Source of the DNA: an uncultured Alkaliphilus sp.
Lineage (GTDB): Bacteria > Bacillota > Clostridia > Peptostreptococcales > Natronincolaceae
DNA: 64,000 nt
Direction of reading: 5' to 3'
Assembly (NCBI GenBank): GCA_938074565.1
Contig: CALJEQ010000005.1
Location: 62,001-126,000 of the forward strand
The position numbers were made by a program, and so were the translations under genes. Of the stretch, positions 42,658-54,700 are shown one piece after another; positions within the stretch are counted from its first letter, which is position 1; the number at the start of each line of letters is the position of its first letter. The notes below the pieces were generated by a model. That model was not told the DNA's origin, searched no databases, and saw nothing but the letters and a program-made list of their open reading frames with translations.

Positions 42658-43000
42658 ATGTGGGCTTTATTGACTGGAACGATACCGTTTGTCTTCAAAC
42701 CATTGATGTTGGCAGTATCTTTTATTTCCAGCAGTGCTTCTTTTCCTCAACCCCTTACGCCAGAGGAGGAAGCCATATACTTAGAACGATATGAAACAGG
42801 AGATGAAGAAGCAAGAAATGTACTGGTGGAGAGAAATTTAAGGCTAGTGGCTCACATTGTGAAGAAGTACTCAAATATTGGTGCAGATGCAGACGATCTA
42901 ATATCTATAGGCACAATTGGGTTAATTAAAGGGATTACAACTTTTGATCGAAAGAAAGGTACTAGATTAGCCACTTATGCTGCAAGATGTATCGAAAATG
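42658..43000 (+). pseudogene. sigK: N-terminal half of sporulation sigma factor SigK, interrupted by element insertion
   Basis: FPQPLTPEEEAIYLERYETGDEEARNVLVERNLRLVAHIVKKYSN..DLISIGTIGLIKGITTF..RLATYAARCIEN, after which homology to SigK ceases. Intact upon excision, if the other half lies beyond the window. Confidence 0.92.
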
Positions 43001-43030
43001 CTATACATACCAAAATGCTACCAATATCCA

Positions 43031-44614
43031 CTACCCAAAAAGGTAGTGAATATCAAAGTTTTCACCATTCCATTCAATTCTCTTCACAAGATTTTTGATT
43101 AAGTCTCGCTTCTCTTTATAAGGTACTGTATCAATTAGTTGTGAAAAACGCATAATACTTTCGTTAAACACTTCAATATTTAAATCTTCTATCATATTAC
43201 TGTTATCTTCAATCTGTTTTTTAAGTTCTATATTTTCATTTTCTAGTTTTTCCATTTCTGCAAAAATATATTTAGTTACTGTACTGTTTTCATTTGATGC
43301 CAGTTGCTTAACTAAATTTTCAATATGTTTTTTATTGATTTCTATTTTATTTTTCATTTTTTTTATTTCTTTATCTCTGTTTTCTAATTTATCATTATAG
43401 GCTTTAATTCCACTAAAAAGACCAGACTCAATGTCTTTTTTTATTTCATCAATTATAATGTTATCAATATGTCTACCGATTAAATTTTTACAATCACATC
43501 TAACTCCTCTAGAAATATCCTTCATAGAACAAACATAATAGTGAAGCAACTCACCTGTATTCTTACTTTTCTGACCATATTTAATCTTCATAAAACTGTC
43601 ACACTTTGTGCATCTTAGTAAAGTAGACAACATGGCAGCATAAGAACCTTGACGTGGTGCTAATGATTTATTTTGTTGCAATATTTTTTGAACCCTAACC
43701 CAATCCTTACCAGGTATAATACCATTATGTTTACCTATAGAAATAATCCATTCGGACATGTCTTTTTGCTTTACAGACTGTCCTTTTTTGACTAGGTTTT
43801 TATTATATGCCATTACTCCATGCTTACCATTAAATTCAGCTTTATTTTCAGCAATTTGGGCGTTATTAGCTGTAAAATAATCAAATACATCTTCATCAGC
43901 AGTAGCATACACTGGGTTTATAAGTATATGACGAATACCAAATTTGTGAAAATCATTACCTTTTTTAGTTTTAATGTTGTTTTGAACTAAAAAGGTTTCT
44001 ACTTGAGATAAAGATTTTAATTCTAAATACTTTTGAAATACAAGCTGTACAATTTTTAGTTCATCTTCTAGTGGTGAAAGTTTAAACATTTTACGCTCCT
44101 TCATAGATTCATCAAGATATATAATAGGCTCGGACTCAAAGCCTGTTGGGCAGTTACCCCCTAACCACCTACCAGTACGTGCAAGTTGCATCATATTGTC
44201 TTGAATACGTTCAGCTATAGTTTCTCTTTCTAGTTGGGCAAAAACACTAGAAATATACATCATTGCCCTTCCCATCGGGCTTGTGGTATCAAAACTCTCA
44301 CGAAGAGATATAAAAGAAATATTGTATTTCTCAAGTTCTTCAATAGTATTTGAAAAATCAGAAACGTTCCTACTAATCCTATCTAATCTGTAGCAGATTA
44401 GAATATCAATTTTTTTTGCTTTTGCATCCTTCATCATTTTCTTAAACTGAGGTCGATCAATATTGCCACCAGAAAACCCTTCATCTTCATATAAAACTAT
44501 ATCAGCACCAGGGAAGTGTTTTTCTATATACTCTTTACAGAGTTCTATTTGATTAAGGATAGAATCTCCTTTTCCCGTAAATTTTGATTTGCGTGAATAA
44601 ATTGCAACTTTCAA
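43031..44614 (-). CDS. Large serine recombinase, SpoIVCA-like
   Basis: VAIYSRKSKFTGKGDSILNQIELCKEYI, LICYRLDRISRNVSDFSNTIEEL, GRAMMYISSVFAQLERETIAERI, zinc-ribbon-like CTKCDSFM, coiled coil. Confidence 0.95.
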   Translation of the reverse strand: MKVAIYSRKSKFTGKGDSILNQIELCKEYIEKHFPGADIVLYEDEGFSGGNIDRPQFKKMMKDAKAKKIDILICYRLDRISRNVSDFSNTIEELEKYNISFISLRESFDTTSPMGRAMMYISSVFAQLERETIAERIQDNMMQLARTGRWLGGNCPTGFESEPIIYLDESMKERKMFKLSPLEDELKIVQLVFQKYLELKSLSQVETFLVQNNIKTKKGNDFHKFGIRHILINPVYATADEDVFDYFTANNAQIAENKAEFNGKHGVMAYNKNLVKKGQSVKQKDMSEWIISIGKHNGIIPGKDWVRVQKILQQNKSLAPRQGSYAAMLSTLLRCTKCDSFMKIKYGQKSKNTGELLHYYVCSMKDISRGVRCDCKNLIGRHIDNIIIDEIKKDIESGLFSGIKAYNDKLENRDKEIKKMKNKIEINKKHIENLVKQLASNENSTVTKYIFAEMEKLENENIELKKQIEDNSNMIEDLNIEVFNESIMRFSQLIDTVPYKEKRDLIKNLVKRIEWNGENFDIHYLFG

Positions 44615-44707: not shown

Positions 44708-46375
44708 CTATATTCTTAAATCAATTTTTACATCTCTAACTCTTTTTACTAAGTAATGTGTTGATATGAATAATATGAAAGTAGCTAGTAAAATTAATAA
44801 TATTGATATGTCTATATTCTTAAAAAGAAGAGTTCTAAAATAATCACTTAAAAAAATTAAAAGTGGAAGTATACTAAAAATTAGTAGAACCCAAAGTGTT
44901 GAAAACTCGGTTATTTTTTCGCTAATATGTATTAGGTTATTTTTAAGTATGTCATTGCTAAAAATGTTATCTAGATCTTTTGGAGATAACAGGCTTTTAT
45001 AAGATTTTTTTAGACTCTTTATAATTTCATTATAATGCTTTAAGTCGGAAGTAATTCCATTTAATGATACAATCAGATATATGTAAGATATTGAATTTAT
45101 AAACAGTAGTACAATGCTTACATCCCTATTAAATAAATTAGTATATTGTGGGTTTTCACTAAAAATACCAGCAATAAAAATAGTAAATATAAAAGAGAAA
45201 GTAGCTATAAAGTTATTTTTAAAAGAAGATGCAAAGTCACTAATAATATCCCCACTTTTAATAGAAATATCAATTATACTATCAGTTATTTTAGCTTTTA
45301 AATCTATGTATTTCTCTGTGTTTTCTTGAAGGTAAATTGAATGATTAGATTGAATTGATGCTAAGGTATTGTTGTCTACACTTAGTAAGCTATTAGAATA
45401 ATCTAATTCTAGTGTCATAATATTTCTACTTAAAATTAATCTATCATTAATATTACCATCTTTATAAATCCAATGAAATATATTAAAAATAGAGTCGTTG
45501 GGGTTTATCAAGCCTTTATAATCAATCGTTTTTGTAATAAGCTTATAACCCTGTAAGTGTATTTTTAATGTATTATTATCTATAAATTCACTATAATTTG
45601 CAATATTAACTATAGATATTATAAATAAAAGCTTATTAAATAATAAATTTATTTTTTCATTCCTAGACTTAGTATTAAACTTAAAAGAATATGGTGTAAG
45701 TTTTAAATCACAACCAATAAATCTACAGTTAAATTTATACTCTTCTATTGCTTTTGTATCAAAACCATTTTGTATATTATAAGTATTAATAGATTCGATA
45801 CTATGTACAAAGAATATATTATTAGTATAAAATTCATTTTCAGATTCATCAATAAAGAATATAACTTTATTATTATAGTGGACTCGTTTTGAAAAAATTT
45901 CTAAAATTTCTTTAAGGTTTAATCGATCAAGATAGTCTATAAAATAATTAAACAAATAAATTCTATGAGTAGGGTTAATACTTTCTGGTTTACTAAATTT
46001 AATTTCTAAATGCAAATATTCTGATTCATCAATATCTTCAAATTCTTTATCTTTTAAGTATTGAAATTCATCCTGTAATTTAGTTCTTAAATCATCATTA
46101 AGACTTTTTTTATCGTAAAGACCTCTAAAATCTGGGCTACAATTAGGTTCACTTATATCTTTATCTAACGTTCTAAAAATGAATTCAAAGGTATCCGACT
46201 CAAGTTTTTTACATATTTCTTCGATAGTTTGGTAGTAAATCTCAAATGTAGAAAGTTTAAATTTTTCTATCTTATAATTTAATTTTGCTACGCTAAAAGT
46301 TTCTTTGGGTGTTGGATCTATTAATGTATGATTATCTTCAGTAAAAAGAGATATAAACTTAGTTATTAAACTCAT
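44708..46375 (-). CDS. Hypothetical protein with C-terminal transmembrane helices
   Basis: Long soluble N-terminus, about four hydrophobic segments in the C-terminal third. Confidence 0.6.
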   Translation of the reverse strand: MSLITKFISLFTEDNHTLIDPTPKETFSVAKLNYKIEKFKLSTFEIYYQTIEEICKKLESDTFEFIFRTLDKDISEPNCSPDFRGLYDKKSLNDDLRTKLQDEFQYLKDKEFEDIDESEYLHLEIKFSKPESINPTHRIYLFNYFIDYLDRLNLKEILEIFSKRVHYNNKVIFFIDESENEFYTNNIFFVHSIESINTYNIQNGFDTKAIEEYKFNCRFIGCDLKLTPYSFKFNTKSRNEKINLLFNKLLFIISIVNIANYSEFIDNNTLKIHLQGYKLITKTIDYKGLINPNDSIFNIFHWIYKDGNINDRLILSRNIMTLELDYSNSLLSVDNNTLASIQSNHSIYLQENTEKYIDLKAKITDSIIDISIKSGDIISDFASSFKNNFIATFSFIFTIFIAGIFSENPQYTNLFNRDVSIVLLFINSISYIYLIVSLNGITSDLKHYNEIIKSLKKSYKSLLSPKDLDNIFSNDILKNNLIHISEKITEFSTLWVLLIFSILPLLIFLSDYFRTLLFKNIDISILLILLATFILFISTHYLVKRVRDVKIDLRI

Positions 46376-46471
46376 TCAATAGACCCCCTTTACATTAATA
46401 TTTTATGTTAATACTTATATCATAATATCTCTATATATAATACGCAATATTTTATTATTAATAACTTTATA

Positions 46472-47563
46472 TTAACTAATTTCATCTTGTAGTTCTGGAT
46501 TGTTTTCAATTAGTTGTTCAACTGGTGGTGTAAGTAATTCTTTAATAGTATTTTCATCATCTGTTCTTATCTTTAAAAAATATTCTTCTTTTTCCTTTTC
46601 GTGTACTACATAAATTTCATTGCGATTTATCTTTCCTTCTATAGATAGAAGAATAGTTTTAGATTTTAAGGGATGAAATTTTCTAGTAACCAATCTTTTT
46701 TTTATACCTTTGGGGTCAATAGAAAATCTTTTATCAAACCCTTTTTTGCTATCTGCTATCTTGTCTATTTTATCAAAAACTTTATCAATCTCTTCACTAT
46801 CACATATTTTTTTTATAGTTTCCTTAAATTCTTCTAAATCAAAATTTTCGTTGGTTCTAAAATAACTAATAGTTTCATTTCTAAGGTCGGTAAAAATTGC
46901 TCTATCACTGATTTTTTTATCCATTACATTGATGATATTGTCTACGGCATTATCAGTATTAACTTCATCATTATTGCATTTATCTAAATCTAAAAAATCA
47001 TCATACCAATGAACAGCATGGGATTTTTGAATAGAATCATCAATATATATATTATAAACTTCAAATTCTCCATCTATATTTTTAATTTCAAAAATACATA
47101 TTCTTAGGGGAGTTTTTTTCTTTTTATCATAAAGAAAAGCTTCAATTATTTCCATTGAATTACGATTAACACCTGTAAAAAATTCATTCTTCATCAAAAT
47201 ATAGTAGTATCCTTCTTCGTTTTTTATTAAAGACTGTATTAGACCACCACTACTTATTTGTGCAGCACCTCTCGAAAATCTAATTTCAGATTCCAATAGT
47301 TTTTGTGCTATTAGTTCTGAATTTTCATCAAAATTAGCTTGATCTGTTTCATCTTGCAGACACTTTTTTATAATAGCGAAAACTTCGTTAGTATCTCTTT
47401 TAAGTTTATAACGCTGACAATTGGTAGAATCATTTAATACATAAGAAGCTGTTTCGGTAATATAATTTGTCAATGTTTCATGTTCGGAGTCTTTAAAAAT
47501 TATGATTTTGCTTTGTCCATCAATATCATAATAACTTTTTAACAAAATATCTGTATTGTCCAT
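46472..47563 (-). CDS. Hypothetical cytosolic protein
   Basis: ORF 46472..47611; ATG at 47563 preceded by AAAGGAGTG RBS; paired with the downstream membrane protein. Confidence 0.55.
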   Translation of the reverse strand: MDNTDILLKSYYDIDGQSKIIIFKDSEHETLTNYITETASYVLNDSTNCQRYKLKRDTNEVFAIIKKCLQDETDQANFDENSELIAQKLLESEIRFSRGAAQISSGGLIQSLIKNEEGYYYILMKNEFFTGVNRNSMEIIEAFLYDKKKKTPLRICIFEIKNIDGEFEVYNIYIDDSIQKSHAVHWYDDFLDLDKCNNDEVNTDNAVDNIINVMDKKISDRAIFTDLRNETISYFRTNENFDLEEFKETIKKICDSEEIDKVFDKIDKIADSKKGFDKRFSIDPKGIKKRLVTRKFHPLKSKTILLSIEGKINRNEIYVVHEKEKEEYFLKIRTDDENTIKELLTPPVEQLIENNPELQDEIS

Positions 47564-47903
47564 TATGAGCACTCCTTTATAGTTTAAATAGTTAATCAAA
47601 TTATACAACACTATATCTGTTGAATTTTGCTACAATTTGTCGAATGAAATAAAATATTTTCATAAAACAATTTTTAACAAAACAGAAGAAAGAGACCTTC
47701 CCCCACTCACTTATTCAAATAGTAAAAAAGGGGGTTAAGGTTCAAGATTGGGATAACATAAAAGATTATTTAGTAAATGTTTTTTTGTTAACAGAATATT
47801 TGTAATTTAATCATCAAACTTCATAAATAATGTGTTAAAATACAATATAAAGCTTTAAAAATGGAGTGAAATATAGAAATGGAAAAGATAAAGTAGATAA
47901 CAC

Positions 47904-48134
47904 TTGCAAATTAAATATATAACTGCAAACCGAGAATATATTATAAGTTGTATTAAAAAGTTACTTGATTGTTTAATAGAAGAAAATGATACAAAGTCAA
48001 TTAAAATGCTTTTTAAGAGCCTTTATAAAAGTTGTAAGAGTAACAATAGTGACTTTAGTAATGATTTGAAACTAATTACAATGGATGTTATTATATTTTT
48101 AGAAGAAAGGGGTTATCTAAATGAAAAAAATTAG
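47904..48134 (+). CDS. Hypothetical small protein overlapping pro-peptide gene
   Basis: TTG-start ORF, 14-nt overlap with 48121..48240. Confidence 0.4.
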   Translation: MQIKYITANREYIISCIKKLLDCLIEENDTKSIKMLFKSLYKSCKSNNSDFSNDLKLITMDVIIFLEERGYLNEKN

Positions 48135-48240
48135 TAGATTGTTAGTTGTTTTACTTGTAGTTACAACTATTATTACAGGGTTTGTATATGCAGGCCCTGA
48201 CAGTAATCCACGACCAGATTCTGTAGTAATTGAAAAGTAA
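48121..48240 (+). CDS. Small exported pro-peptide (candidate signalling peptide)
   Basis: Own translation: MKKISRLLVVLLVVTTIITGFVYAGPDSNPRPDSVVIEK; signal peptide; upstream GAAAGGGG; terminator follows. Confidence 0.65.
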   Translation: MKKISRLLVVLLVVTTIITGFVYAGPDSNPRPDSVVIEK

Positions 48241-48242
48241 AA

Positions 48243-48273
48243 TAAATACCCCCTGATTTAGGGGGTATTTATT
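48243..48273 (+). terminator. Rho-independent terminator
   Basis: aaataccccctgatttagggggtattta. Confidence 0.75.
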
Positions 48274-48406
48274 TTTGAGTATACTCAATTATTTTTGTCA
48301 CATTTGTAATTCATTTTAATATATTAAAAAAATTGCGAAACTCGCAACTTTATTTAGTACATTTAGTGCTATAATTATCTTAACTATAATGCATGGGGGT
48401 ATACAT

Positions 48407-49147
48407 ATGAATAAACTGCTGAATGAATTTAAAGTAGAAAAAGACAATGAGCATCTAACAGTACAAGTAATCGAAAATGAAACAGGTATAAAGATTAATA
48501 TTGATACAAATACACCATTATCAATTTCGGTAAATGGTGATGTTGTAGAAGAACTATTTAATCAAGAAGAATATAAGTATATTCCACCACATATAAGACC
48601 GTTTATCTCCAGTAGTTTTCAATGCGACAGAGAAACCAAGAAAGAAGGAGAGTGCAAAGGAGGGACATGTTTAAATACAGACGTAATATACTTACAGGAT
48701 AAAGACAATCTTCCAATTCCCTTACTTACGCCTAAACGCATTCGATGCAATAAAGAAATAGATAGGGAAAATAGGAAAGTCCTTTGCAGTTACTTAGAAA
48801 TAGGAGAAGAATTTATGTATGATTTTCTACTTGTGAATATTCCTATTAATGGTTCTGATTTGAGGATTGAAATAGATTTATATGAATATGAGCAAATTGA
48901 AATTTTTAAAAATGTAAATATTGAAAATGGGTTAGAGCACTTCGATAGGTTAATAAATGATTTATCAAAATTAGGATTTAAATTGAATCATATTTGTCGT
49001 AATGATGGACGGTATGATAGCTTATATGAACTAATAATTCCGATAGATAATTTTAATAAAGATGATGTACGTGAGGCAGTAAAATTGTGTTATTGTTACA
49101 ATAGTAATTTGGAAAATAGCTATTTAGCAAATAAAATATATAAGTAA
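48407..49147 (+). CDS. Hypothetical protein with cysteine cluster
   Basis: ATG 48407; FQCDRETKKEGECKGGTCLNTD...IRCNKEI...VLCSYLEIG. Confidence 0.5.
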   Translation: MNKLLNEFKVEKDNEHLTVQVIENETGIKINIDTNTPLSISVNGDVVEELFNQEEYKYIPPHIRPFISSSFQCDRETKKEGECKGGTCLNTDVIYLQDKDNLPIPLLTPKRIRCNKEIDRENRKVLCSYLEIGEEFMYDFLLVNIPINGSDLRIEIDLYEYEQIEIFKNVNIENGLEHFDRLINDLSKLGFKLNHICRNDGRYDSLYELIIPIDNFNKDDVREAVKLCYCYNSNLENSYLANKIYK

Positions 49148-49299: not shown

Positions 49300-50595
49300 G
49301 TGATGAGATTAATGAAATTGACCTTAAATGATATTGTAATAAAAAGTGCTGGCGAGCAACTCAAAGAAAAAATAACAGATAAATTTGGTACATTAAAAGC
49401 TTTTGCAGATTTTTTAGGTATAACCGATAGAGATTTAAGGAGGAAATTAAACTCAAAACAAGTTGAATTATTTAATAGTAGTATTGTTAAATTCAAATTA
49501 CGCTTAACTAATATATTTGAAGCAAGTTATGATGAGCTAGTTCTAACAGACGAAAAGCAAGCTATACGTTTTGTAGATAACCTATTTGAAAACATTCATG
49601 GCTATAAAAATGAAGAAGATATGTTAATTATTAAAAAACTAAAAGATTTATGCTACAGCTACAATCTTACTAGAGAGCTTGTTAAAATTAAGAGGATAGA
49701 AGCAATATATTATTACTATAACGATAGTTTTAATAGAGCCACAGATACTTTAAGAAAAGCCATTGATGAGGCTACTGACAAAAGTTATAAAAATTTAGAG
49801 ATATTCTTTATATGTGATTTAGCGATGTTGTATTATTTTAAAAAAGATAATATTACAGCAGATCAAATATTAAAGACTATAAACATAGCAGAAGCGGAAG
49901 ACAATGAGCTTAAGAAAAGAGTATGCTATAAGTATTATTACAACTGTGCCACCCTTAAACTAAGCATGACGTATTATGAAGAAGCCATTAATTATTACAA
50001 AAAAGCTTTACAGTATAGTAGGGATGATATAGACCAGGGCGTAGTTTTAAGTGGCATAGGTTTAGTATATAAGAAAAAGGGTGAGTATGATAAAGCTTTA
50101 ACTTATTATGATGAAGCCTTAAAAATTCAAAGCGATAATAATACGTTAATTATCACATATAATAACAGGGCAGAGTTATTCCGTTGTATCGGTGACTTAG
50201 AAAATGCACAAGTTGAAATACGTAAGGCTATAAAAATAATTGAGGCTAACAATATTAATACAATGCACAGTGTTATTGTTTATAAAACTGGGTTCGAGAT
50301 AGAAATTGCAAAAGGACAAGTAACTAAAACAATTGATAAAGTAGTTGAATGGCACTATAATATAGAAAAACATCATATATTTAAAGAATATGTTATTGAA
50401 GGACTAGAGATTATTATAACAGAGTTAGAAAAACATCAATCCTTCTTAGATCTGAAAAAAGTTGGTATATTAATTAATGATTTAATAATGAAAGCACAGA
50501 CATCAAATGAAACAAACTATCTTAGCGATTTAGAAAAATATTTAGGTAAGATAGTAACAATATTTTTTAAAAATAAAATAGAATGGAGGTATTAA
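49300..50595 (+). CDS. HTH + TPR regulator, putative RRNPP-type peptide receptor
   Basis: FGTLKAFADFLGITDRDLRRKLNSKQ HTH; TPR units such as AINYYKKALQYSRDDIDQGVVLSGIGLVYKKKGEYDKALTYYDEALKIQ. Confidence 0.78.
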   Translation: MMRLMKLTLNDIVIKSAGEQLKEKITDKFGTLKAFADFLGITDRDLRRKLNSKQVELFNSSIVKFKLRLTNIFEASYDELVLTDEKQAIRFVDNLFENIHGYKNEEDMLIIKKLKDLCYSYNLTRELVKIKRIEAIYYYYNDSFNRATDTLRKAIDEATDKSYKNLEIFFICDLAMLYYFKKDNITADQILKTINIAEAEDNELKKRVCYKYYYNCATLKLSMTYYEEAINYYKKALQYSRDDIDQGVVLSGIGLVYKKKGEYDKALTYYDEALKIQSDNNTLIITYNNRAELFRCIGDLENAQVEIRKAIKIIEANNINTMHSVIVYKTGFEIEIAKGQVTKTIDKVVEWHYNIEKHHIFKEYVIEGLEIIITELEKHQSFLDLKKVGILINDLIMKAQTSNETNYLSDLEKYLGKIVTIFFKNKIEWRY

Positions 50596-50596
50596 A

Positions 50597-50743
50597 ATGA
50601 AAAAGAAAATTATAAGTTTGTTATTAGTAGTATCTATGGCATTGGTTTTAGTAACTAACGTGACCAAGGTTTCCACTGAACAAGAAAATTTAACAACTGA
50701 ATTTAAAATACATACTGATAATCCAAATCCAACACATGTATAA
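50597..50743 (+). CDS. Small exported pro-peptide, candidate cognate signal of the adjacent RRNPP-type regulator
   Basis: Own translation: MKKKIISLLLVVSMALVLVTNVTKVSTEQENLTTEFKIHTDNPNPTHV; TGGAGG RBS inside the 3' end of the regulator; terminator follows. Confidence 0.72.
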   Translation: MKKKIISLLLVVSMALVLVTNVTKVSTEQENLTTEFKIHTDNPNPTHV

Positions 50744-50746
50744 AAT

Positions 50747-50777
50747 AAGCTAGCGAAAAATCGCTAGTTTTTTTTTA
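50747..50777 (+). terminator. Rho-independent terminator
   Basis: aagctagcg aaaaat cgctagttttttttt. Confidence 0.75.
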
Positions 50778-51238
50778 TACATGTGTTGTCGAAAAATGTC
50801 GCAAAAAACACTAAATATAATTTAAAGTTTATTTATTAGTATAAATATAGTAAGAATAAGTTTATACATGCCTGATAGACACCAAATATATGTTCAAGTT
50901 AACCAAATAAGCAGTATATTACTTTAAGAACTTAATAATTCCATAAAAAACAGGTCTATAGTTTACATTTTATGTAAACTATAAATTTTGACACATATTA
51001 TTTATTTAAGTATAATTTAACTACAAAACACAACTTGTAAGAAACACAACGCTATTATATCAACACTCGAAGTTAACAAGGGGGAAATGGTCATGTGCAT
51101 AGCATGTAAACTAATTAAAGACAATGATATTGAATGCTGTAATATTGATACTATTAAAGAAAAATTTCTATGTTTAATACCAGATTATATGGAAGTAGAT
51201 ATAGTAAAATCAATATCAAAAAAAATAACATCTAGTAA

Positions 51239-51676
51239 TTAGCTGTTATTTTTTTTATCCTTAAACATTATATCGTACATTTGTACTATTTTTTTTATTC
51301 GTTCAGAAATTATTATTTCTGTTTCTTCATTAAGCTTAAAGTCCTTATCTAATAAACCCTCTTCAATAAGACTTTCTACTATTAAGTTGTATATTTCTAA
51401 TTTGTTATTAATATTTGTAGTGTTTTGTAATTTTAAACTTTCTGGTTTTTGTGAATAACTATTTTCTAAATCTTTAGAGTCTGTTTCACATAACAGGTAG
51501 TCAATAGAAACATTAAAAATGTTTGCTAGTTTTTTTAGCATTTCAGTGTCGGGTTCAGCTTTGTTACGTTCCCATTTTGCAACAGCTTGTTGTGTAACAC
51601 CTAACATATCTGCTAATTTTTGTTGAGATAAATTTAATGTATCTCTTAATTGTTTAATTTTAGAACTTAACATTAA
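51239..51676 (-). CDS. XRE-family repressor
   Basis: SSKIKQLRDTLNLSQQKLADMLGVTQQAVAKWERNKAEPDTEMLKKLANIFNVSIDYLL. Confidence 0.88.
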   Translation of the reverse strand, partial: LMLSSKIKQLRDTLNLSQQKLADMLGVTQQAVAKWERNKAEPDTEMLKKLANIFNVSIDYLLCETDSKDLENSYSQKPESLKLQNTTNINNKLEIYNLIVESLIEEGLLDKDFKLNEETEIIISERIKKIVQMYDIMFKDKKNNS

Positions 51677-51757
51677 ACACACTCCTTTCATTTATATTTT
51701 ACAACAAAAAGTTGTTGTGATAAAGAATAACAACTAAAATTCGTAAAAAAATATTGA

Positions 51758-51842: not shown

Positions 51843-52043
51843 TTGAGAAAATGGCTTATTCAAGCAAGAGAAAAAAGCAAGTTGTCGCAAAGTGAACTAT
51901 CTAGTTTATGTAATATAACACAACAATATTATAGTTACATTGAACTAGGTGAACGTAGACCTTCTCCTGAAACAGCTCAAAAAATAGCAGAAGTTTTAAA
52001 TTTTGACTGGACTTTGTTTTTTATAACCCAAACAAAATGTTAG
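51843..52043 (+). CDS. XRE-family regulator (Cro-like position)
   Basis: WLIQAREKSKLSQSELSSLCNITQQYYSYIELGERRPSPETAQKIAEVLNF. Confidence 0.85.
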   Translation: MRKWLIQAREKSKLSQSELSSLCNITQQYYSYIELGERRPSPETAQKIAEVLNFDWTLFFITQTKC

Positions 52044-53950: not shown

Positions 53951-54700
53951 ATGAATTTAGAGAATAACATTAAAGATGTAATAAATAAAAAGATGGAGGA
54001 TGGAACTATTGAAAGACTAATAGGAGAGCAACTGGAAAAGGGTATTAATAAATCCTTAGAAAATCTCTTAGGGACATATGGTGATGTTACAAAAATTATT
54101 GAAGGAAAAATAAAAGAGGTTATGGTAAGTCAATTATCTAAATTCGACTATTCAAACTATGTAGTAAAACTAGATTGTGTTTTAACTGAAATACTAGAGA
54201 AAACTACATTAGATCATAAAAAAATATTAGAGAATTTTAAAGAGTTAATGCTTGATGATGATATTCCTAAACAGGTAAAAGTTTCAGATATATTTGAAAA
54301 ATATAAAAAGAATATAGCTAAAAATATAAATACAAGTGATTTGAAAATAGATTATGATGATTGCGAACCAAGTTATCAATTTGTAACAGCAACTATGGAA
54401 ATTGAGCATGAAGAAAAAAGATCTTGGTCAACATCATCATTTAAGAATGCAAAAATTATTTTAGAGTGTGAAGAAGATGAAGATTTAAACTTAGAGATTA
54501 ACATATCGAAATTTATGGAATATCCTTGGAAATTAAGTGAAAAAACAGATACATCTATCGATGGATTGAGATATTTAGATGAATTTAAAATCTATATTCT
54601 GAAGCTATATCAAAAAGGTACTATATTAGAGATTGATGAAGAATATTTAAGTGATGACGAGGTGGAACCAGAAGGACGTCCAGAAATAGAATACAGATAA
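53951..54700 (+). CDS. Hypothetical protein
   Basis: 249-aa ORF, AAAGGGG RBS. Confidence 0.55.
   Translation: MNLENNIKDVINKKMEDGTIERLIGEQLEKGINKSLENLLGTYGDVTKIIEGKIKEVMVSQLSKFDYSNYVVKLDCVLTEILEKTTLDHKKILENFKELMLDDDIPKQVKVSDIFEKYKKNIAKNINTSDLKIDYDDCEPSYQFVTATMEIEHEEKRSWSTSSFKNAKIILECEEDEDLNLEINISKFMEYPWKLSEKTDTSIDGLRYLDEFKIYILKLYQKGTILEIDEEYLSDDEVEPEGRPEIEYR

Follow-up and report, generated by a model that had tools for sequence, protein, structure and literature searches.

A putative peptide-signalling cassette within the immunity region of an ICE-like element that splits sigK, and its parallel in a prophage of the same genome

The window, by which we mean the whole 64,000-nucleotide stretch of Alkaliphilus sp. 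DNA that was analysed, carries a sigK gene split by a mobile element, and within this element a regulator gene and a small pro-peptide gene precede a compact set of regulatory features:

42658 to 43098, + strand: 5' half of sigK (TIGR02846); the C-terminal half is found at contig C5:148843, outside the window
43031 to 44614, - strand: large serine recombinase encoded by the sigK element
49312 to 50595, + strand: RRNPP-type regulator with HTH and TPR regions, 427 aa; also readable from GTG 49300
50597 to 50743, + strand: pro-peptide gene, 48 aa, predicted to be exported, with the candidate pheromone core TDNPNP within HTDNPNPTHV
50747 to 50770, + strand: strong intrinsic terminator of the regulator-peptide operon, 10-bp stem and T tract
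50787 to 50801, + strand: tandem Spo0A-type boxes TGTCGAAAAATGTCG (TGTCG-N5-TGTCG)
50957 to 50983, no strand assigned: putative operator, a perfect palindrome with 12-bp arms, TATAGTTTACAT-TTT-ATGTAAACTATA
50988 to 51016, + strand: perfect sigma-70 promoter, TTGACA-17-TATAAT, starting 4 bp past the palindrome
51087 to 51242, + strand: short ORF, candidate AimX-like effector, 51 codons (49 from ATG 51093), with the Shine-Dalgarno sequence AAGGGGG
51239 to 51691, - strand: CI/ImmR-like repressor, 150 aa (HTH_3, E 2e-20), convergent with the short ORF
51843 to 52043, + strand: Cro-like HTH protein, divergent from the CI-like repressor

The regulator reading frame (49300 to 50595, + strand) contains TPR repeats (Pfam TPR_2, E 1e-13), and an N-terminal HTH is suggested by a weak match to DUF739 (E 6e-4) that lies under the curated cutoff; an HTH-like block at this position is conserved among its relatives (alignment A1). 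ATG 49312 is the most likely start codon, because AGAGGTGAT is a Shine-Dalgarno sequence that overlaps GTG 49300, and because the alignment of the relatives begins at MKLTL (MKLTLNDIVIKS). A single nucleotide separates the stop codon of the regulator gene from the pro-peptide ORF, whose own Shine-Dalgarno sequence, GGAGGT, is located within the 3' end of the regulator gene. The pro-peptide begins with KKK and a hydrophobic run, terminates with FKIHTDNPNPTHV, and is devoid of the clear AxA cleavage site present in most of its relatives' peptides. The sequence-only reading had described an HTH and TPR protein adjoined by a 48-aa ORF, a ribosome-binding site inside the 3' end of the former and a terminator behind the latter; each of these elements was recovered at its position. 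Two features had escaped that reading, namely the orphan pro-peptide at 48121-48240 and the region of operator, promoter, short ORF and CI at 50787-51691.

The published signature of RRNPP systems comprises a receptor of 250 to 500 aa with TPR repeats and a small pro-peptide of 10 to 100 aa encoded within -60 to 400 bp of it (PMC10075063). The pair in the window agrees with this signature in receptor size (427 aa), TPR repeats, peptide size (48 aa) and spacing (1 nt), so the proposed RRNPP assignment stands on these features. Such systems are also marked by a Sec-type export signal on the pro-peptide and, Rap excepted, by an N-terminal HTH; here the window shows the KKK with its hydrophobic run for the one, and the weak DUF739 match with the conserved block for the other. 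AlphaFold and Foldseek were set aside as evidence: a prediction from the single regulator sequence, made without an alignment, was of low confidence (pLDDT 59), and its Foldseek matches were TPR and Rap proteins of a generic kind, with TM-scores that were low when taken across the full model.

Diverged relatives of the regulator, searched for across the order and the class, were found twice more in the same genome (contigs C28 and C8), seven times in genome G062, and in G115, G084, G027, G024, G157 and family f31; since the profile searches scored four candidates per genome, counts of pairs are lower bounds. An exported small ORF lies just downstream of the regulator in at least 14 further loci (C28 and C8; L005, L016, L017, L018 and L019 of G062; L046 of G115; L062, L064, L068, L069, L070 and L072), with L067 as a weaker fifteenth; no downstream peptide ORF was found at L006, L007, L008, L015, L047, L048, L049, L052 and L061. 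The window regulator shares 19 to 29% identity with its relatives in the aligned set, and recent shared DNA therefore does not account for the retention of the peptide; that at least 14 such diverged relatives keep an exported small ORF downstream argues that the window pair is more than a chance neighbourhood. The earlier reading had named a lack of such pairs, with a shared peptide core, among the observations that would speak against it; at least 14 were found, with a proline core. Phage records and IMG/VR yielded zero relatives with the window, prophage or G062 queries, a plasmid search returned generic TPR matches only, and a TPR protein that was the single match in a scan of genome contigs was dismissed as unrelated.

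The peptides are built alike: KK and a hydrophobic segment come first, most relatives then have a clear AxA site, and in many a D/N-rich stretch with a proline follows. The cores of the relatives include VDDTNP, SDITDP, GDHTDP, VHDTTP and TDNPD, and that of the window peptide is HTDNPNP. When the rule that a proline occupies residue 6 after AxA was derived from the G062 peptides and tested on ten others, six of these ten conformed versus 1.1 expected, a result reached by 0.015% of shuffles. A [DN]..P pattern occurs in 13 of 17 peptides versus 4.1 expected; it was picked after looking at the sequences, and we hence rely on the held-out position test. An unbiased motif search of the post-cleavage tails was marginal, with width 6 reached by one of 40 shuffles and widths 4 to 5 not significant. 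In L046, L064 and L069, the core is repeated at the C-terminus of the peptide. Judged by the conserved TDNP-like core, the mature window peptide plausibly corresponds to about HTDNPNP to DNPNPTHV.

Downstream of the terminator, the arrangement TGTCG-N5-TGTCG is one of four such sites in the 3.68-Mb genome, two of which lie in the cassettes of the window and of the C8 prophage; of the other two, one is situated upstream of an exported-protein gene and one appears unrelated. In C. difficile, the boxes that Spo0A recognises have the core TGTCGAA (PMC3485338). The palindrome belongs to a class (GTTTACA-N3..17-TGTAAAC) with three occurrences in the genome, and two similar long-spacer palindromes are positioned at host sites. 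The CI/cro intergenic region has AACAACTTAAGGTTGTT-type repeats that are unlike the palindrome, so the latter is not obviously a CI operator. The 12/12 match of the adjoining promoter is reached by 0.15% of dinucleotide shuffles of the region. The short ORF that follows gave zero Pfam or PHROG matches, and a hairpin (z -4.3) at its end is shared with the convergent CI-like repressor gene; a Spo0E-like identity, considered for the short ORFs of both window and prophage, found no support in Pfam and was discarded.

The two sigK halves lie about 44 kb apart, which is the size of the element, and an intact sigK is present in the sister species G001. Conjugation genes (TcpC, TcpE, a VirB4-type AAA_10 ATPase and an M23 peptidase) are accompanied by Tad-like AAA_31, T2SSE, prepilin peptidase, ParM-like and DnaD-like genes. 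By this gene content the element is ICE-like; its interpretation as a phage was rejected, as conjugation and Tad-like genes are present and capsid genes were not found. Among the element ORFs scanned, which are a part of all its ORFs, no relaxase or coupling protein was recognised, and no excision factor was identified in the element. On contig C5:126001-146000 (L029), the element combines conjugation genes of TcpC/VirB4 type with Tad-like genes for a pilus and a gene for an SLH protein. Three element ORFs of 555, 379 and 252 aa, at 44708 to 49147 of the window, matched neither Pfam nor PADLOC entries and are possible cargo. The nearest relative of the sigK-element recombinase among 198 genomes, with 59% identity, is that of G115, where an RRNPP pair is directly divergent from it and sigK fragments are found nearby. 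The sigK gene of G115 is broken into at least three pieces, and the contig concerned (L112, C16 6126-19839) has two serine recombinases, with the pair beside one of them. The small sigK elements of G003 and G034 are without the pair in the stretches read.

A parallel copy of the cassette resides in a prophage on contig C8 (206.5-248.6 kb) with a terminase, structural-type genes and a serine recombinase. The terminase, the one gene searched, is 50-55% identical to those of Exiguobacterium, Faecalibacterium and Paenibacillus phages; the structural labels derive from size, order and reading. As in the window, the gene order is a divergent serine recombinase, regulator, peptide, terminator, tandem TGTCG boxes (in the opposite orientation to those of the window), inverted repeat, promoter (TTGACA-17-TATACT), short ORF and convergent CI. 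The inverted repeat, TTTACACT-N10-AGTGTAAA, has the half-site AGTTTACA in common with the window palindrome, an 8-mer arm whose sharing is not significant alone (913 of 4000 shuffles), and the spacing of the arms is unequal, with 3 nt in the window and 10 nt in the prophage. The peptides of the two cassettes differ, and the short ORFs are unlike each other. The two elements also have genes in common: a 249-aa protein without a Pfam match, encoded at 53951-54700 of the window, is 75% identical, in 189 of 251 columns, to a protein of the C8 prophage.

The order of receptor, exported pro-peptide, operator region and short ORF (49312-51242 in the window, and in the C8 copy) resembles that of the arbitrium system AimR-AimP-AimX of phi3T and SPbeta, and the cassette likewise sits in the decision region of its element. 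The AimX of phi3T, a 51-aa protein, acts on targets other than the master repressor (PMC10769878), so that even by analogy the short ORF may have a target other than the CI-like repressor. In contrast to arbitrium, the window system has a different pheromone and a clostridium-relative host, its short ORF runs towards a convergent CI-like repressor gene, and an ICE-like element carries one of the copies. No convincing similarity to AimR was detected: hhalign of alignment A1 against phi3T AimR gave a probability of 8.8% over 57 columns in one TPR stretch. The window system is thus laid out like arbitrium, with a regulator that, by its sequence, is not AimR. RapI-PhrI of ICEBs1 offers a second resemblance, namely a TPR regulator and a downstream exported peptide that are borne by an ICE, together with a CI-type repressor on this element. 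RapI, which works through ImmA/ImmR, is not known to have an HTH or to bind DNA, whereas the window has a putative operator, and ImmA was not seen. The Qsr-Qsp systems of Clostridium acetobutylicum and the QssR-QssP systems of C. saccharoperbutylacetonicum also consist of an HTH-TPR regulator followed by an exported peptide of 39 to 50 aa (PMC7376267), but the window peptide has a TDNP core in place of L..P..W, and its pair is element-borne. A chromosomal, Qsr-like pair is found on contig C28 (L033 14239-15670), and its peptide end, GTLGDIVWRW, is close to that of C. acetobutylicum QspB, LGAEPTWGW (PMC7376267). The skin (sigK intervening) element of C. difficile likewise splits sigK, carries a serine recombinase and is excised to rebuild the gene (PMC5025042); it is prophage-like, whereas the window element carries a putative peptide-signalling cassette as well as genes of the conjugation and Tad-like kinds.

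At about an even chance, we favour the reading that the pair is a self-sensing RRNPP system wired to the immunity switch of the ICE-like element in sigK. Starting from the observed gene order, pair conservation, cis elements and parallel prophage copy, it would operate as follows. After its export, the pro-peptide would be cut down to a short peptide with a core of the TDNPNP type, which the oligopeptide permease of the host would take up and the regulator would bind through its TPR domain. The HTH of the regulator, placed on the palindrome, would set the activity of the adjoining promoter. The resulting 49-51-aa product, or its transcript, would oppose the convergent CI-like repressor and so favour excision and transfer; the presumed sign of regulation is that high peptide, when neighbours already have the element, shuts the switch off, and Spo0A at the tandem boxes might add a sporulation input. 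The control of excision or transfer envisaged earlier would thereby become more specific, running via the immunity region beside the putative operator, promoter and CI-like repressor. This immunity-switch reading is suggested by the maintenance of the pair, with exported pro-peptides, at 19-29% regulator identity, by the repetition of the cassette order in the C8 prophage, including the AGTTTACA inverted repeat, by the presence of two of the four genomic TGTCG-N5-TGTCG sites in these cassettes, by the held-out proline test, and by the recurrence of the recombinase-RRNPP linkage in G115 together with the conjugation genes in the element. Counted against it are the weak HTH profile match, the dissimilar short ORFs, the unequal palindrome spacing, the shared 8-mer arm that is not significant alone, the absence of a convergent CI from the G115 and chromosomal pairs and the fact that neither a relaxase nor an excision factor was recognised among the element ORFs scanned; counted against the Spo0A part is the unusual distance of about 190 bp between the boxes and the promoter.

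Three other explanations have to be weighed. That the peptide is an unrelated small secreted or membrane peptide next to a TPR transcription factor, with quorum sensing not involved, is very improbable: the missing clear AxA site and the regulators without a downstream peptide ORF (L047, L048, L049, L052, L061) would fit it, but the further pairs with export signals, the proline core that passes the held-out test and the L046, L064 and L069 peptides, with a core at either end, argue otherwise. A genuine pair might instead act mainly on host genes for sporulation or physiology, like Rap or Qsr, its siting in the immunity region being incidental. Chromosomal relatives (G062, family f31, C28) indeed have the pair with no immunity region in the flanks seen, QssB of C. 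acetobutylicum affects solvents and sporulation (PMC7376267), and Spo0A-type boxes are close by. We regard this explanation as rather unlikely, if by no means negligible, given that the pair and its accompanying cis elements occupy the same position in two elements of one genome, one ICE-like and the other a prophage.

It is also conceivable that palindrome and promoter serve a different factor, be it CI, Cro or a regulator of the host, and that the RRNPP regulator acts elsewhere, for instance by protein contact. RapI of ICEBs1, which is not known to bind DNA, provides a precedent, and the similar long-spacer palindromes at host sites point the same way; the different AACAACTTAAGGTTGTT repeat between CI and cro and the conserved N-terminal HTH-like block of the regulator relatives speak against such ownership and leave it doubtful.

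Arbitrium-type decisions have so far been described from Bacillus phages, and no clostridial arbitrium-like case was found in the open-access literature searched. Here, an AimR-unrelated RRNPP regulator in an arbitrium layout occurs on two different mobile elements of a single clostridium-like cell, and one of these elements splits a gene, sigK, that sporulation must rebuild. It thereby becomes testable whether peptide signals and Spo0A jointly set the exit of the sigK element, and whether elements that inhabit the same cell exchange signals. Each of the two elements may time its exit by its own peptide signal.

Upstream of the intact cassette, the element contains the remains of another:

47620 to 48134, + strand: second-cassette remnant, with a promoter, a start codon that leads into MEKIK and a stop, and some 70 codons from the 3' end of a prophage-type regulator gene
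48121 to 48240, + strand: orphan pro-peptide, 39 aa, ...VYA/GPDSNPRPDSVVIEK, intact, with its own Shine-Dalgarno sequence and terminator

The promoter and start of the remnant match the 5' region of the C8 cassette with 83% DNA identity over 58 bp and 75% over 108 bp, and its regulator C-terminus is 29% identical to that of the C8 prophage regulator over 63 aa (E 1e-7). By these similarities, the orphan pro-peptide is the leftover of an internal deletion in a prophage-type regulator gene. It may act as a receptor-less signal, and its GPDSNPRPD resembles the prophage pheromone region ...YIEPRPDFS. One might speculate that a two-input exit switch, which responds to an element's own pheromone and to Spo0A, is common to the ICE-like element and the prophage, and that the orphan peptide GPDSNPRPD..., kept after the loss of its own receptor, signals to the receptor of the resident prophage and biases its decision; we consider this improbable.
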